The notes beneath the pieces are model-generated. The model had not been told where the DNA came from, did not search any database, and worked only from the letters and a program-made list of their open reading frames with translations. Shown piece by piece: positions 55,792-63,443 of a stretch of 64,000 nt of DNA (position 1 is its first letter; each line of letters begins with the position of its first letter). The stretch is from NCBI RefSeq assembly GCF_900115785.1, contig NZ_FOYS01000003.1, forward strand, positions 1 through 64,000, in the 5' to 3' direction. The DNA is from Halogeometricum limi. GTDB taxonomy: Archaea; Halobacteriota; Halobacteria; Halobacteriales; Haloferacaceae. A program made the translations under genes and the position numbers.

Positions 55792-55900
55792 TATGTCTTC
55801 TGAGACATAATTTATATCTCGCAAATTTAACTAAAATTCAAACTTAATTGCTATCAGTGCCATCATTGGTGTATATCTGGGGTCCTGTAGTAGTGTAGGC

Positions 55901-56491
55901 ATGGTAACAAGCCACGGTGTGAAGTCGATCAATGAGTACAAGAAGTGGAGAGTACGGGCCGAGCACAGCACCGAGATCGCAAAACCGTTCCTAAGACATG
56001 ATGGAGAATTTGGCGGAAAAACAAAAATGGAGGTACACATAAAACTATTTTTAGAGGGATATAATAGCTTACAGGATGCTCACCAGATATTTAGCATACC
56101 AGACTTTGACAGATTCCTGAGAGAACTTGTCAAAAGAATATCTTACGTCGAACCCGAGTTAGTTGATATTCTAAAACCGTCGAAGGTCGCGTTAGGAATT
56201 CAGCATCCGGATCCTGTAAATGAAGCATACAAAAAAGGTGATTTAAGATTCGTAACACAATTTTCACCGTTCACGTTTTTTAGCGCAAAGCAACCCAGCT
56301 TTGATAGACCCACGCTTTGGTGGCCTGATGCTAAGCCTTGGGAGGTTCTTGATTTTGAGAAGCCAGAAACCACTATTGTTGAAGGTACCGTTGATCCAGA
56401 CCATTCCAGTTATAATACTAAGTTGGCTACTTTCATTGATCAAGCACCTCATCTAGAGTTGCCAGACAGATTCAAAAAACATCTTCTATAA
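55901..56491 (+). CDS. AT-rich accessory protein, unknown
   Basis: A 196-residue protein in sequence clearly lower in GC than its neighbours, with codons ending in A/T throughout, unlike the chromosome. The composition is also less acidic (many Lys: INEYKKWRVRAEHSTEIAKP). Predicted mixed alpha/beta; patches include FDRFLRELVKRISYVEPELV and PTLWWPDAKPWEVLDFEKPE. No signal peptide or membrane helix is seen. I do not recognise a family. Position next to a split tRNA-Gly and an integrase points to acquisition by transfer; it lies outside the tRNA halves and may be the remnant of an earlier insertion. Confidence 0.75.
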   Translation: MVTSHGVKSINEYKKWRVRAEHSTEIAKPFLRHDGEFGGKTKMEVHIKLFLEGYNSLQDAHQIFSIPDFDRFLRELVKRISYVEPELVDILKPSKVALGIQHPDPVNEAYKKGDLRFVTQFSPFTFFSAKQPSFDRPTLWWPDAKPWEVLDFEKPETTIVEGTVDPDHSSYNTKLATFIDQAPHLELPDRFKKHLL

Positions 56492-56666
56492 TAGTTTTGC
56501 TATGTTTGGATTAGTGATGCTAACCTCACAAGTGAAAAGCGATCTGTTGGCAGAAAACCCGAATTACGCTCGCTCTGTTCACTCGCTGATTCACTCCTTC
56601 TGGTCAGGGTCGCTTCGTTAACTATAGCTTGGTGACTTCGACTCTTCGTCTGGTCCCGTGAGAAAA

Positions 56667-56710
56667 TGCGCCGGCCGGGAATCGAACTCAGACTATTAGC
56701 TTGAAAGCTA
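56667..56710 (-). pseudogene. 3' half of a disrupted tRNA-Gly gene
   Basis: Read on the minus strand it starts with a degenerate anticodon arm (TAGCTTTCAAGCTA), then variable region, T-arm (TTCGATTCC) and the 3' acceptor strand CCGGCGC with discriminator A. The acceptor strand pairs exactly with GCGCCGG of the 5' fragment at 58323-58359. No 5' acceptor strand lies just upstream on this strand. Confidence 0.75.
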
Positions 56711-56762
56711 TCGACTATCTAGGGCAGTTAACTTAATTTACCCACGAATCCTCCTGAAGCCG

Positions 56763-57944
56763 ATGGTGGACATCAACGACCCGAAAGGGTACGAGGACAA
56801 AAAGGAGAAGGCTCTCTCCTTACTCAAACAAGCCGAAATCGACGACAGGGACAAACAGGCCATACTCGCGCTCTACGGACTGCGGGAGACGACCGGCGGT
56901 TACGAACCGAGTACGCAGAAAACTCTTCTCACTAACCTGAAGCGAGTCGCCGAACTCACCGAGAAGCCAATCACCGAATGGGAACACACCCCATACCACT
57001 CCGACCACACCGAGTTCTTCCAAGGCATCAGCGACGGGAGCAACCCGAACGCACCAGATGGTGGGTACTCCGATAGCTACGTCGGTAACCTCCGTCGTTC
57101 CGTGAGCGTGTTCCTCAACCATCTCGGTCGAGAGTGGAACGAGGATATAAAAGTCGGTCAGCCCTCCGACGGCAAAATCACCGAGGAAGACTGTTTCACC
57201 TCGGACGAGACGAGTCGCCTGTTCGCCATGACCGACGGTCGAGACTCCGCTATCATCGCCATGTGGCTCGCCACGGGGCAGCGCCTCGCGGCTATGGCGA
57301 GCATCCGTGCGGAAGACGTGACAATCAATGGAAACAGAGGAGGGTTCCATCTCAATCCGAAAGCTATCGGGCTCAAAGGAGCAGAAGGCTATCGGCCTCT
57401 TCTGTGGAGTGCTCCGTACATCGGACGCTGGCTCGACCAGCATCCGACATATCCTGACGTGGACCCAGACGCCGCCCTATTCGTGTGTGCCCGGAGCGGC
57501 CCCGAGTACGACCTCGGCGACCCCCTCGGACCTTCTGGGTTCACGAAACTACTCAAACGAGCATGTGAACGCGCGGGTATTAACCAATCTAAAGCACAGA
57601 CTCACCGTCTGCGCCACACCGCGATCCGCCGCATGATTCGAGACGGCCTCTCGGACCAGTGGATTAAGTACATGGTCGGATGGAGCGAGGACTCCCCGCA
57701 ACTCCAGCGATACGGGAGTCTGCGCGACAAGACGAAGGCGCGGGACATCGAAGCGCACTACGGACTGAATCCAGAGGACGACGAGGATGACCATCAGTTG
57801 TTCGAGAACTGCCCGGCGTGCGGCACTCCCATCTCTGAACTCATCAAAGCGTCTTACTGTCCTTCGTGCGGTCTCGCCCTCTCCCACGACACCGAACGCA
57901 TGGAAGCCGAGATAGAGAACCGTCTGTGGATAAGCAAGAAATGA
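56763..57944 (+). CDS. Tyrosine recombinase (integrase) with zinc ribbon, truncated by in-frame TGA
   Basis: A 393-residue integrase. A SAM-like core-binding domain (residues 45-130, STQKTLLTNLKRVAELTEKP) precedes the catalytic domain: R174 in ATGQRLAAM, H281-R284 in HRLRHTA, the GWSED block (306-310) and nucleophile Y317 in LQRYG. A C-terminal zinc ribbon follows (CPACGTPI and CPSCGLAL). The frame stops at TGA 57942-57944, but continues in the same frame to TAG 58077-58079 with 44 more plausible residues, including VKQILDSPAARTEVMEALKD. All catalytic residues precede the stop, so the product may still work. Confidence 0.88.
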   Translation: MVDINDPKGYEDKKEKALSLLKQAEIDDRDKQAILALYGLRETTGGYEPSTQKTLLTNLKRVAELTEKPITEWEHTPYHSDHTEFFQGISDGSNPNAPDGGYSDSYVGNLRRSVSVFLNHLGREWNEDIKVGQPSDGKITEEDCFTSDETSRLFAMTDGRDSAIIAMWLATGQRLAAMASIRAEDVTINGNRGGFHLNPKAIGLKGAEGYRPLLWSAPYIGRWLDQHPTYPDVDPDAALFVCARSGPEYDLGDPLGPSGFTKLLKRACERAGINQSKAQTHRLRHTAIRRMIRDGLSDQWIKYMVGWSEDSPQLQRYGSLRDKTKARDIEAHYGLNPEDDEDDHQLFENCPACGTPISELIKASYCPSCGLALSHDTERMEAEIENRLWISKK

Positions 57945-58079
57945 GGCGACCAAGAGAAGGCCGACCGTGGCGTTGATGTAGTGAAACAGATCCTCGATAG
58001 TCCAGCGGCGAGAACCGAGGTAATGGAGGCGCTGAAAGACGAACTCGTGTCTGAAATAGAAGGCGAACTCGGTTTGTAG
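57945..58079 (+). pseudogene. Detached C-terminal tail of integrase 1
   Basis: In frame with the integrase after the TGA: a charged helical stretch (GDQEKADRGVDVVKQIL, then ARTEVMEALKDELVSEIEGE) ending at TAG. It has the look of genuine coding sequence and of the helical tails on haloarchaeal integrases, so the TGA is read as a nonsense mutation. Without the stop the protein would be 438 residues. Confidence 0.65.
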
Positions 58080-58131
58080 CGACCGGTTACCATCTCCACG
58101 AACAACTAACCTCTCTCATCAATCTAGTATA

Positions 58132-58158
58132 TTTTGCCCAAATGCCATTTGGTCAAAA
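58132..58158. promoter_or_regulatory. 12-base inverted repeat in element 1
   Basis: TTTTGCCCAAAT (58132-58143) and ATTTGGTCAAAA (58147-58158) pair at 11 of 12 positions around a 3-base spacer. In an AT-rich setting between integrase and tRNA it could be an operator, a recombination-directionality or replication site, or a bidirectional terminator. Only the structure is seen. Confidence 0.55.
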
Positions 58159-58203
58159 TACAAGCAAACTATTGTTTTCAAGCAAAATTTGAGAAGTTGT
58201 AAG

Positions 58204-58274
58204 TGCGCCGACCGGGAATTGAACCCGGACCGCGGGCTTGGGAAGCCCGAGTCCTACCATTGGACCATCGGCGC
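58204..58274 (-). tRNA. tRNA-Gly(CCC), intact, carried inside element 1
   Basis: Full cloverleaf: acceptor GCGCCGA with TCGGCGC, D-arm with TGGTCCAATGGTAGGAC, anticodon stem CGGGC/GCCCG around TTCCCAA (anticodon CCC), T-arm GGTTCAATTCC, discriminator A. The acceptor, anticodon and T stems differ from those of the broken tRNA-Gly flanking the element, so it is a different gene and not a copy of it. Confidence 0.96.
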
Positions 58275-58322
58275 TTGGTGACCGTAGTCGTGGTAAGCTA
58301 ACTTTCCCACACGGGTTATGTG

Positions 58323-58359
58323 TTGGGAATCTAATGTCCTACCATTGGACCACCGGCGC
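58323..58359 (-). pseudogene. 5' half of a disrupted tRNA-Gly gene
   Basis: On the minus strand it reads GCGCCGGTGGTCCAATGGTA and goes on through the D-arm into TTAGATTCCCAA (anticodon CCC with loop TTCCCAA), then diverges (CACATAACC) where the 3' anticodon stem should be. The acceptor strand pairs with the fragment at 56667-56710. Confidence 0.8.
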
Positions 58360-58577: not shown

Positions 58578-59411
58578 ATGAGTTCGGAACCCACGATTCT
58601 CGCCGACACCGCCCCGTTGGACCTTCGCCTCTCGGACGACGAACTGGAACGGACGCACCAGCACATCCTCCAGTTCCTCCGCGACGTGGTCGACGACGCC
58701 GGTGCCGACGGCGCGGTATTGGGTCTGTCGGGCGGCATCGACAGCACGACGGTCGCCTACCTGGCCGCCGAAGCGTTCGGTCCGGAGAACCTCCACGGCC
58801 TGGTGATGCCGAGCGTGGTCAACACCGAGGAGAACATGAGTGACGCCGAACGCGTCGCCCAGGAGTTGGGAATCGAGTACGACGTCGTCGAGATTCAGCC
58901 CATCGCCGAGACGGTGTTCGACACGTTCCCCGAGGCGGCGGACGACAAGATGGCCGCGGGAAACGTCTACGTCCGCCTCCGCGGCGTCCTCAACTACTTC
59001 GTCGCCAACCACGAGGGGAAAGTCGTCCTCGGCACGGGCAACCGCGCCGAAGCGCTCTCGGGCTACTTCACGAAGTACGGCGACCAGGCGGTCGACTGCA
59101 ACCCCATCGGCAACCTCTACAAACAGCAGGTCCGCCAACTGGCCGCGCACGTCGGCGTCCCCGACGACCTCGTGACGAAGACGCCCTCCGCCGAGATGTG
59201 GTCGGGGCAGACCGACGAGGAGGAGATGGGCATGGACTACGACACTCTGGACGCCATCCTCGCGCTCCACGTCGACGGCCCCCTCTCGAAGTCGGCCACG
59301 ATAGACCACCTCGGCGTGACCGAATCGCAGGTCGACCGCGCGGTCGAACTGTACGAGAAGAGCGAGCACAAGCGCCACATGCCGCCCGCACCGGAACCGC
59401 TCGACCTGTAA
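58578..59411 (+). CDS. nadE: NAD+ synthetase, ammonia-type
   Basis: Last step of NAD synthesis: amidates deamido-NAD with ATP. It has 277 residues, no glutaminase domain, so it uses ammonia. The PP-loop is LGLSGGIDSTTVAYLAAEAF; the conserved blocks LGTGNRAEALSGYFTKYGD, CNPIGNLYKQQVRQLA and KTPSAEMWSGQTDEEEMGMD bind NaAD and ATP. The ATG at 58578 begins MSSEPTILADTAP. It is a core gene sitting between two integrative elements. Confidence 0.96.
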   Translation: MSSEPTILADTAPLDLRLSDDELERTHQHILQFLRDVVDDAGADGAVLGLSGGIDSTTVAYLAAEAFGPENLHGLVMPSVVNTEENMSDAERVAQELGIEYDVVEIQPIAETVFDTFPEAADDKMAAGNVYVRLRGVLNYFVANHEGKVVLGTGNRAEALSGYFTKYGDQAVDCNPIGNLYKQQVRQLAAHVGVPDDLVTKTPSAEMWSGQTDEEEMGMDYDTLDAILALHVDGPLSKSATIDHLGVTESQVDRAVELYEKSEHKRHMPPAPEPLDL

Positions 59412-60980: not shown

Positions 60981-61027
60981 GCCTGGGTAGCTTAGCGGTA
61001 AAGCGCGTCCTTGGTAAGGGCGAGAGC
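60981..61027 (+). pseudogene. 5'-half copy of tRNA-Thr (left boundary of element 2)
   Basis: It matches the first 47 bases of the intact tRNA-Thr at 63273-63344 with one difference (61020 G versus 63312 A), covering acceptor 5' strand, D-arm and whole anticodon arm. After it the sequence forms a different T-arm (ACGGTTCAACGCCGT) but no matching 3' acceptor strand, so it cannot give a functional tRNA. Confidence 0.88.
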
Positions 61028-61206
61028 GACGGTTCAACGCCGTTTGCTTAACCGACGGCTACAGGCTCTAACACCCCATTTTCCGCCTTCTCTCAACTCG
61101 AAAGAAGGTGTACCCAAGTGTACGATAACGCTAAGACACAAACAGGCTCCTGTACGACGATTAGTTCTACAACCGAGACGTTTCCCGCAAGTGATGAGGT
61201 GAGCGT

Positions 61207-62406
61207 ATGAACCACGGTGACCCGCTCGACAATATCCCTTCATCGAGCGTCGAAGACACTGAGGTTCTACCACCGGCTACCTCTGAGGTCGAATTTTCGT
61301 TCCCGCTCGTAAGTAAACGTACCAAGGATGACCTGGACAAGTTCGGCGTCAACATGCTCGGGGACTACGAGGACTTCAAAGAGGAGGTTCTGACGTGGTT
61401 CGCCAACTACGGTAAGAATCCAGAGAAGGGTGACGGATTAGCAGATAGTACACTCCAGTCGACTCATTACAAGCTCGAAACCGTGTTCCGCTGGCTGTGG
61501 GACTACGAGGAGGAGTACACTACGGACCTAACTCCAGCAAAAGCCGAACGGTTCATCCATCTGTTGAATATGTCGGATGGGATGATTGATTCGAGCGTCC
61601 TCCACCACGTGAAGGTCATCAAGCGGTTCTTCAAGTACCACAACCACGTCCACGGGACAGATTGGGAGTGGGACCCGGACGTCGAGTTGAGCCAAGCAAA
61701 CGGAGACGAGCGTGATTTCCTTCATCGAGCGGCGTTTCGGTCGCTTTACAAGGCCGCGTTAGACTTCGACTCGGTCAAGAGCTATCACAGTTCGTCGATG
61801 ACTCCCGAGGAGCGCGACCGAATCAAGACGTACCTTGCGCAGAGTGAGGGCGTGCCGAAAGAGAAAATCGGGGCTGAAGAGTTCAAGAACGCGAACTCGT
61901 GGAAAACACCCTCGCTTATCGCCGTCACCCTCGATACGGGGCTTCGACCCATCGAGGTGGGGCGAGCGACGGTTGATTGGGTGAATCTCGAATCGCACGA
62001 GCTGAACATCCCCAAAGAAGAGTCGACGAAGAACACCGAATACTGGAACTGCACGTTGAAGAACCGGACTGTGAAGGTGCTACGTCGATGGCTCGATGAA
62101 CGAGCTACCTACGACAAATACCAAGACCGAGACGAACTCTGGTTGACGAAGAAAGCGACACCCTACAGTTCCAAATCCTGTAACTATCTACTGAATCGAC
62201 TCATCGAGGCTGGTAACGTCCCGATTCCAGAACACAAGGATGTCACGTGGTACTCGATTCGACACGGTGTCGCGACGCATTGGGCGAACCACATCGGTCC
62301 TCACCACGCCAAGGAGCAACTTCGCCACAAGAGCGTGACGACGACGATGAAATACCTACACTCCGACCCGGAAATGCGGTCCACGGCGGTGGAACAAATC
62401 TGGTGA
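61207..62406 (+). CDS. Tyrosine recombinase (integrase), virus/plasmid type
   Basis: A 399-residue integrase starting 180 bases after the tRNA-Thr half copy. Residues 75-160 are the core-binding domain (STLQSTHYKLETVFRWLWDY). Catalytic residues: R247 in DTGLRPIEVGR, the second box TWYSIRHGVATHW (Y349, R352, H353), H374 in QLRHKSVTTT and nucleophile Y383 in MKYLHSD. The layout resembles the integrases of haloarchaeal pleolipoviruses and related plasmids. It lacks the zinc ribbon of integrase 1 and is not closely similar to it. GC is lower than in core genes. It appears intact. Confidence 0.9.
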   Translation: MNHGDPLDNIPSSSVEDTEVLPPATSEVEFSFPLVSKRTKDDLDKFGVNMLGDYEDFKEEVLTWFANYGKNPEKGDGLADSTLQSTHYKLETVFRWLWDYEEEYTTDLTPAKAERFIHLLNMSDGMIDSSVLHHVKVIKRFFKYHNHVHGTDWEWDPDVELSQANGDERDFLHRAAFRSLYKAALDFDSVKSYHSSSMTPEERDRIKTYLAQSEGVPKEKIGAEEFKNANSWKTPSLIAVTLDTGLRPIEVGRATVDWVNLESHELNIPKEESTKNTEYWNCTLKNRTVKVLRRWLDERATYDKYQDRDELWLTKKATPYSSKSCNYLLNRLIEAGNVPIPEHKDVTWYSIRHGVATHWANHIGPHHAKEQLRHKSVTTTMKYLHSDPEMRSTAVEQIW

Positions 62407-62420
62407 ATTGGCCAGTCGGC

Positions 62421-62786
62421 TTAGAATCTCCCCAATAGCGGCATGAGGGAATTCAAAAGTCCCATCATGTCGAATCCCAAGAGATGTCCGGTTATGAGGA
62501 CTGCTACTAACCCTATTACCACTTTTTTTATTTTATCAAATATCTCTATTATGATACCTCCGGCTAGTTTAAATCCTAGAAGAACTGTTGTAGCCAGTAT
62601 TCCCATCTGAGTCACGGGCGAATTGATAGCAGATTCGTACAACCCCCACCACAAAGTTCCAAAGTCAATAATCCCGACATCACCGTTTAGTTGGAGGTAG
62701 GAAACTATCGCCGCGGCTAGCATGATTATCCCAAACTGTTTGGCGAACCCATTGATGGACTCAGTTATCCTGTTGCGAATTCCCAT
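62421..62786 (-). CDS. AT-rich multi-helix membrane protein, unknown
   Basis: A 121-residue hydrophobic protein with three to four helices (FGIIMLAAAIVSYLQ; MGILATTVLLGFKLAGGIII; KKVVIGLVAVLITGHLLGF) and a basic N-terminus. ATG 62786 is chosen, two bases after the stop of the preceding gene; GTG 62795 is an alternative that would overlap it. Small multi-helix proteins like this occur as virion membrane proteins in haloarchaeal pleomorphic viruses, or as holin- or conjugation-like proteins; I cannot decide. Codon use is AT-rich. Confidence 0.75.
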   Translation of the reverse strand: MGIRNRITESINGFAKQFGIIMLAAAIVSYLQLNGDVGIIDFGTLWWGLYESAINSPVTQMGILATTVLLGFKLAGGIIIEIFDKIKKVVIGLVAVLITGHLLGFDMMGLLNSLMPLLGRF

Positions 62787-62788
62787 TT

Positions 62789-63037
62789 TCACCACCCCTG
62801 TCCGCCGTTGCGGAATACCCAGAGCAACAACCCCAGTATGATTACTGCGACGATAGTACCGACACTAGGTACTAGTACGTGTGCCATTCCGGTGATTAGT
62901 GATTCAAACTGACCTATTGCATCGAAATTTGAGTTATCAATGTTATTGACGAACGCTAATAATCCAAACATGATAGGAAAAAGGGCTAGTAAGGTGATAA
63001 TCTCATTAGCGTCCTCAAGTGTTTCTCCAAGCGACAT
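62789..63037 (-). CDS. AT-rich two-helix membrane protein, unknown
   Basis: An 82-residue protein from ATG 63037 (MSLGETLEDANEIITLLALF); a TTG at 63058 would add seven residues. Two hydrophobic helices (LLALFPIMFGLLAFV; VGTIVAVIILGLLLWVFR) and a short Gly/Trp end (NGGQGW). It forms a pair with the next gene (2-base spacing), so they are probably made together and may interact. I recognise no family. Confidence 0.72.
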   Translation of the reverse strand: MSLGETLEDANEIITLLALFPIMFGLLAFVNNIDNSNFDAIGQFESLITGMAHVLVPSVGTIVAVIILGLLLWVFRNGGQGW

Positions 63038-63204
63038 TAGTTGAATATATGGCAACAATATTGATAAGTCTGTTGTAGAAACTGGTTCTGGAGGGCGTTT
63101 CTAACTATTGTGCTTCAATTCATCGAGGTGGGATTACCGAAGAGAAACCAGTTCTCAACGATTTCGTGTGTTACCTTCAGACACAACCGATGCGATTCAC
63201 CACA

Positions 63205-63212
63205 TATATATA
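63205..63212 (+). promoter_or_regulatory. TATA box upstream of intact tRNA-Thr
   Basis: TATATATA stands 60 bases before the tRNA 5' end, inside element 2. It would give the rebuilt tRNA gene its own promoter, since the host promoter was left with the half copy at 60981. Confidence 0.55.
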
Positions 63213-63272
63213 CGTCAGGTTAGTAAATTCGGAATGCAGAAGCGGGAAATGGCCGTAGAACGGCTCATACCT

Positions 63273-63344
63273 GCCTGGGTAGCTTAGCGGTAAAGCGCGT
63301 CCTTGGTAAGGACGAGAGCCCGGGTTCAAATCCCGGCCTAGGCT
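63273..63344 (+). tRNA. tRNA-Thr(GGT)
   Basis: Full cloverleaf: acceptor GCCTGGG with CCTAGGC (one G-T pair), anticodon stem CGTCC/GGACG around TTGGTAA (anticodon GGT), T-arm GGTTCAAATCC, discriminator T. CCA is not encoded. Its 3' tail is repeated 97 bases downstream. Confidence 0.96.
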
Positions 63345-63346
63345 TT
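63324..63346 (+). repeat. 23-bp direct repeat, copy 1 (tRNA-Thr tail)
   Basis: GTTCAAATCCCGGCCTAGGC plus TTT, the T-loop to 3' end of tRNA-Thr, repeated exactly at 63421-63443. Confidence 0.85.
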
Positions 63347-63420
63347 CTGCGAAGAACATCGTGGCGAGCAGAAGCCGTAACCGGATTTGAGCAGCGAGCA
63401 AATCTCCGATTTGCGAGTGA

Positions 63421-63443
63421 GTTCAAATCCCGGCCTAGGCTTT
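63421..63443 (+). repeat. 23-bp direct repeat, copy 2 (tRNA-Thr tail, not a tRNA)
   Basis: Exact second copy, 97 bases after the first. The bases before it (GATTTGCGAGTGA) give no anticodon arm, so it is a tail fragment, as downstream of tRNA-Lys. Confidence 0.85.

Follow-up and report, generated by a model that had tools for sequence, protein, structure and literature searches.

Remnant of a haloarchaeal element that very probably split its host's tRNA-Gly(CCC) gene and carries the replacement

A stretch of 64,000 nucleotides from Halogeometricum limi (here called the window) contains a native tRNA-Gly(CCC) gene in two pieces, with an integrase gene and an intact tRNA-Gly(CCC) gene between them. 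We consider it very probable that this locus is the remnant of a haloarchaeal provirus-type element, whose integrase split the sole tRNA-Gly(CCC) gene by recombination between a 7-nt core and the gene's anticodon loop, and whose own tRNA replaces the lost function. One native gene is split, and the replacement is the only tRNA-Gly(CCC) gene of the genome (G000; 3.6 Mb in 8 contigs). The architecture is complete in a second genus (G412), and its left half is present in a third (G007). The features of the window are as follows, each with the evidence that defines it in parentheses.

58578-59411, plus strand: nadE, a host gene outside the element that serves as the anchor of the site in relatives (Pfam NAD_synthase, E 1e-83; synteny)
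58323-58359, minus strand: 5' half of the native tRNA-Gly(CCC) gene, cut after the anticodon loop (match to the congeners' gene and upstream flank; flank alignment)
58323-58329, minus strand: attL core TTCCCAA, the 7-nt anticodon loop (sole sequence common to attL and attR in G412)
58275-58322, minus strand: element-derived spacer of 48 bp, from the attL core to the replacement tRNA (comparison of three left ends)
58203-58274, minus strand: replacement tRNA-Gly(CCC) with anticodon stem TCGGGC/GCCCG (ARAGORN and genome scan)
56763-57944, plus strand: tyrosine integrase, 393 aa (Pfam Phage_integrase PF00589, E 2e-15)
56709-56762, minus strand: right attachment arm of the element, from the integrase start to the attR core (attR alignment of window, G412, and G432)
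56667-56708, minus strand: attR core remnant and 3' half of the native tRNA-Gly(CCC) gene (match to the congeners' gene, 89% in G003)

The native gene and its empty site

The minus strand from 58359 to 58323 reads GCGCCGGTGGTCCAATGGTAGGACATTAGATTCCCAA, and the 3' piece reads ...CAAGCTAATAGTCTGAGTTCGATTCCCGGCCGGCGCA, with its last base at 56667. In four of four congeners, a single intact tRNA-Gly(CCC) gene with the sequence GCGCCGATGGTCCAATGGTAGGACATTAGCTTCCCAAGCTAATAGTCCGGGTTCRATTCCCGGTCGGCGCA lies just upstream of nadE and points away from it, and the same placement is found in many genomes of the family and the order. In BLAST searches, the 5' piece together with 41 bp of upstream DNA aligned to this gene on its nadE side (in G001, 94% over 78 bp, E 2e-26). 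The 3' piece matched the opposite end (89% in G003, E 1e-7). At the anticodon loop, ~11 bp are covered by both matches, and the flank GCGCGAGTGAAACGAAGC is common to the window, G001, and G003. Such matches are not due to chance, and the two pieces are therefore one native tRNA-Gly(CCC) gene cut at the loop. BLAST found the interior of the element in none of the congeners. A first-pass annotation of this DNA had proposed that integration broke a host tRNA-Gly(CCC) gene, and its proposal is borne out by these congeners, in which the nadE-adjacent site without the element holds one intact gene made of the two halves. An origin of the halves from tRNA-Gly(TCC), based on a G7-C66 pair and TTTC in the 3' piece, was dropped after the congeners' Gly(CCC) genes had been compared.

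A genome-wide covariance-model scan of G000 gave 48 tRNA matches, of which ARAGORN called one as Gly(CCC), one as Gly(TCC), and two as Gly(GCC). The sole Gly(CCC) is the intact gene at 58203-58274 on the minus strand, which settles a question raised by the first-pass annotation, namely whether the genome has another. The tRNA-Gly(TCC) gene (L006/L094; G000:C6:516702-516772) is at the same place as in G001 and G002, with flanks that are 83 to 84% identical. The gene itself is only ~77% identical to theirs and has a different anticodon stem and a paired acceptor change; it is possibly another replaced tRNA-Gly gene.

Several parts of the window copy have decayed. The 5' half carries a C-to-A substitution at position 31, and in the attR core one base is missing and another is substituted (CTTCCCAAG has become CTTTCAAG). 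In the 3' half, the T-stem (CTGAG/CCCGG) contains an A-C mismatch and a G-U pair, whereas congeners have CCGGG/CCCGG; the T-arm had previously been described as intact. A second correction concerns the stretch TAGCTTT before the 3' half, which alignment with G412 and G432 places in the attachment arm of the element and not in the tRNA. When the two halves are joined, ARAGORN still calls a tRNA, so that they have likely, though not certainly, lost their function. A premature in-frame TGA at 57942 shortens the integrase by ~45 residues relative to the G412 and G432 integrases in an alignment, and the open frame runs on past this codon to 58079. Between the halves we found only the integrase and the tRNA, with no capsid or other viral gene, and it is only through its integrase and ends that a viral origin of the window copy is suggested. 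We read it as a fossil, a decayed remnant whose tRNA the host has retained.

Other traces of integration lie nearby. Many relatives have repeated tRNA-Gly(CCC) 3' ends downstream of the intact gene (L048 2645-2850, L055, L059, L064, and L069), apparently scars of earlier 3'-end integrations at a hot spot. Just outside the 3' half, window positions 55800-56666 are foreign, AT-rich DNA (~40% GC) with a 196-aa open reading frame that has no Pfam or PHROG match; G002 has a MOSC-type gene there that is missing in the window, and this suggests another insertion or exchange beside the element. A second integrated element occupies window positions 60981-63442 (plus strand) at a tRNA-Thr(GGT) gene. The host 5' part with its native upstream flank is at 60981, followed by an integrase (61207-62406), small membrane-type open reading frames (62421-63058), and an intact tRNA-Thr (63273-63344) that borders the native 3' flank. 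The arrangement looks as though this element supplied the 5' part in the manner of pTN3-type elements. A further tRNA-Thr 3' end is near 63420, and G002 has a similar repeat.

An undecayed copy in another genus and further cases

We screened 171 genomes of the family for the loop sequence followed within 50 bp by the start of a second tRNA-Gly. This split-plus-replacement pattern was found in only three, G000, G007, and G412, which is a small number of cases, and a reversed control pattern had no match in the 171 genomes. An order-wide search for the split architecture returned G000 only.

In G412, 37 bp separate the native 5' half (GCGCCGTTGGTCCAGTGGTAGGACATTGGCTTCCCAA) from an intact tRNA-Gly(CCC) gene downstream of it, which has exactly the rare anticodon stem of the window. 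Some 31 kb farther on is the native 3' half (CCCAAGCCAATAG...), with the same orientation. Joined at TTCCCAA, the halves make a 71-nt gene that is identical at 71 of 71 positions to that of its congener G419. The attL and attR of G412 have only TTCCCAA in common, and neither junction forms a tRNA. The G412 genome contains one Gly(CCC) pattern match. An inverted repeat around the core was not significant. The element has the following extent.

375230-406446 of contig C2 of G412 (L157, L158): provirus element of 31 kb (capsid and packaging genes)

Its packaging ATPase is 62 to 66% identical over the full length to those of PH1, SH1, HCIV-1, and HHIV-2. The cargo includes head-protein families, with a head protein at ~31% identity to SH1/PH1-type viruses, and a serine resolvase and an Eco57I-type restriction-methylase beside the capsid and packaging genes. 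We judged alphasphaerolipovirus affiliation on an SH1/PH1-related packaging ATPase and capsid proteins, rather than on gene order; the G412 element encodes these and the window remnant does not. The predicted proteins mark the G412 element as a sphaerolipovirus-like provirus, which resembles the alphasphaerolipoviruses and related proviruses in its size and packaging ATPase and, more weakly, in its head proteins. Sphaerolipovirus-like proviruses near integrase and tRNA genes were described in 2017, and the passages on them report no split tRNA or replacement (PMC5332951).

The G412 integrase is 57% identical to that of the window and, as in the window, starts ~50 bp inside attR and reads inward. 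The closest integrase, at 66% identity, is that of G432. In all three, the entire integrase frame is located inside the element, and the aligned right attachment arms share TAACTG..CTA..TAG. Invariant columns of the integrase alignment include R176, H283, R286, W309, and Y319 (G412 numbering), which we take to be catalytic-type residues.

G007 has a decayed native 5' half with the same end point (...ATTAGCTTCCCAAG, followed by ACTC). An intact tRNA-Gly(CCC) gene begins 38 bp after it, with the stem TCAGCC and a body identical to that of the window's replacement. The contig (C64) stops 220 bp past this tRNA, so the left half of the arrangement is what can be seen. Two congeners (G405 and G413) have kept the native gene.

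Other genomes may hold later stages. The G432 integrase adjoins a native-type tRNA-Gly(CCC) 3' half, and a complete tRNA (stem AAAGCC) is at the native position. Although its integrase is the closest, G432 retains no 5' half, and its history therefore needs an extra step. G436 has a TCGGGC-type gene at the native place, where we saw no element, and its 16 congeners lack the TCGGGC stem. Both genomes could reflect a later collapse between identical 5' parts. In G244, the tRNA-Gly(CCC) gene at the native place (L166; G244:C1:816432-816502) has the stem ATAGCC and a body (A7, CCAATGG) unlike that of most of its genus; it may be another replacement scar.

The replacement tRNA and alternative readings of the locus

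The first-pass annotation had also held that the element brought a distinct, full replacement, and this stands: the intact gene between the halves has a body that matches the congeners' gene, and its anticodon stem differs on both strands (TCGGGC/GCCCGCGG). Among the family genomes examined, this rare stem is otherwise found only in G412 and G436. Among 394 genomes of the order, a sample without those two, it is found only in G000. The replacement tRNAs of the three elements and the G436 gene have U26 and CGG after the stem, a combination absent from the other Gly(CCC) genes that we fetched. In all three cases (G000, G007, and G412), the replacement has TCGGGC or TCAGCC as its stem where the target has ATTRGC, and the rest of the gene differs little. 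The replacement follows attL in the same direction in all three genera, after 48 bp in the window, 37 bp in G412, and 38 bp in G007.

The recoded stem might confer immunity to the integrase. This conjecture fits the three cases, and it is offered as a hypothesis, as the anticodon stems of tRNA-Gly(CCC) vary between genera anyway. A broader version is somewhat doubtful in our view: the stem-loop would be the recognition site, and a differing stem would shield the replacement from the element's own integrase and from related elements. Repeated cycles in which a gene is split and replaced and the duplicated 5' part collapses (G436, G432, and perhaps G244 and the host tRNA-Gly(TCC)) would then drive a turnover of tRNA-Gly anticodon stems across haloarchaea.

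Could the intact tRNA be an incidental passenger, carried for instance for translation of element genes, with the split tolerated as Gly(UCC) reads GGG? Viruses often carry tRNAs, and Gly(UCC) is present in the genome. Even so, we think this unlikely, given that the anticodon is the same as that of the cut gene, and that place and direction are kept, 37 to 48 bp inside attL, across three genera with integrases down to 57% identity. Furthermore, 145 of 148 genomes of the family have a Gly(CCC)-type gene (by a pattern that also takes some Gly(TCC) genes). Gly(CCC) may not be essential, because Gly(UCC) could read GGG by wobble.

The usual archaeal outcome is an island that restores its target tRNA (PMC8371274), and the intact tRNA, integrase, and 3' fragment are all present here. 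On that reading, the element's own copy of the 3' end would have restored the host gene, now seen as the intact tRNA; the displaced end would be the 3' fragment, and the 5' fragment would be an unrelated duplication or an older scar. We regard this as very improbable. The congeners' upstream flank is on the 5' fragment and not on the intact tRNA, whose anticodon stem departs from the native one on both strands. No junction rebuilds the target; the intact gene is separate, 48 bp inside attL. The G412 locus already contradicts an island of this kind, since its native halves are complementary parts of one gene with a whole replacement between them. Certain other archaea have trans-spliced split tRNAs, and the gene is cut here at the anticodon loop, near the usual archaeal intron or split position. 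Separately transcribed and trans-spliced halves, with the intact gene as an extra, are nevertheless scarcely credible when the halves are mismatched in the window and decayed in G007, their extensions pair weakly in the window and in G412 reach a pairing that is not significant, being attained by 6.5% of random 20-mers, and an intact gene with the same anticodon is present every time.

Mechanism, excision, and relation to known systems

The preferred reading remains that of a host gene split by integration and functionally replaced by the element's tRNA. A tyrosine integrase would join the 7-nt core to the anticodon loop TTCCCAA, splitting the host's single tRNA-Gly(CCC) gene. Recombination at the loop would necessarily break the tRNA, and neither junction would rebuild it because the shared core is only seven bases. 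The element carries a complete tRNA-Gly(CCC) gene, oriented like the host gene, within a few dozen bases of its left end. After integration, the replacement would sit just downstream of the native promoter region and take over the lost function. In the window, the integrase presumably carried out the split. The replacement is presumably expressed, from the native promoter, and would be needed for survival while the element is integrated.

Precise excision of an intact element should restore the native gene. Loss of an undecayed element should be harmless and go unpunished, because excision rejoins the halves, and in G412 the join is exact and gives the G419 gene. The carried tRNA would thus make integration survivable rather than punish excision. 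The first-pass annotation had proposed addiction by an essential tRNA, which does not suit an undecayed element such as that of G412 and may describe the present state of the window copy. The window copy appears to have lost its cargo and the ability to excise. With the halves and one core mutated, its replacement is probably locked in, and its loss would now probably be costly.

The same logic is known from tRNA-dependent lysogeny in actinobacteriophages (Fionnbharth, LeBron, Gaia, and others), for which genetic experiments proved the need for the phage tRNA (Guerrero-Bustamante and Hatfull 2024; PMC10865867). As in those phages, the element encodes a tyrosine integrase (PF00589 in the window, with a homologue in G412), attB is within a host tRNA gene, and the core is too short to rebuild the tRNA (8 to 17 bp in the phages and 7 bp in G412). 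A tRNA-Gly(CCC) gene is inside the element in G000, G412, and G007, and the host gene is otherwise single copy (G000 has one Gly(CCC) gene, and G412 a single pattern match). However, the hosts here are archaeal, and the tRNA requirement, which has genetic proof in the phages, is one that we infer for the archaeal elements. In Fionnbharth, the tRNA gene is located elsewhere in the phage and has a promoter of its own, whereas the archaeal replacement is directly inside attL, downstream of the native promoter region.

Among archaeal elements, SSV1, pTN3, pT26-2, and SNJ2 also have a tyrosine integrase and an attachment site in a tRNA gene, and strand exchange around the anticodon loop is documented for the SSV1 integrase, as proposed here (PMC8371274). 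Those elements restore the tRNA at one junction, whereas neither junction does so in the present ones. In SSV-type elements the integrase gene is split by integration, whereas it is whole in the window, G412, and G432. The first-pass annotation had called carriage of a distinct full tRNA unusual. That holds for archaea, in which integrations restore an uninterrupted tRNA according to a 2021 review of archaeal tyrosine recombinases (PMC8371274), but the actinobacteriophages are a precedent (PMC10865867). We found no archaeal tRNA-dependent lysogeny in the openly licensed literature, where 18 papers use the term and no title listed is on archaea; this is not proof of absence. From these comparisons, the new features would be the archaeal host, the separate integrase, the loop-only core, the replacement behind the native promoter region, and the different anticodon stem.

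Database searches gave few relatives. IMG/VR had nothing for the tRNA pattern, the split architecture, or the integrase profile. Phage and plasmid collections had no similar tRNA, and their integrases were only ~25 to 30% identical. An integrase search of named genomes had one distant match. Near more distant integrases (42 to 52%), no tRNA was called in the stretches fetched.

The G412 element is undecayed, which makes both recombination and dependence directly testable. If the proposed mechanism is true, tRNA-dependent integration extends from actinobacterial phages to archaea, where the integrase has only distant similarity to the integrases of catalogued viruses and one of the elements is a sphaerolipovirus-like provirus. 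It would also explain concretely why a mobile element carries one particular tRNA, and show how a mobile copy can permanently take the place of a host tRNA gene.
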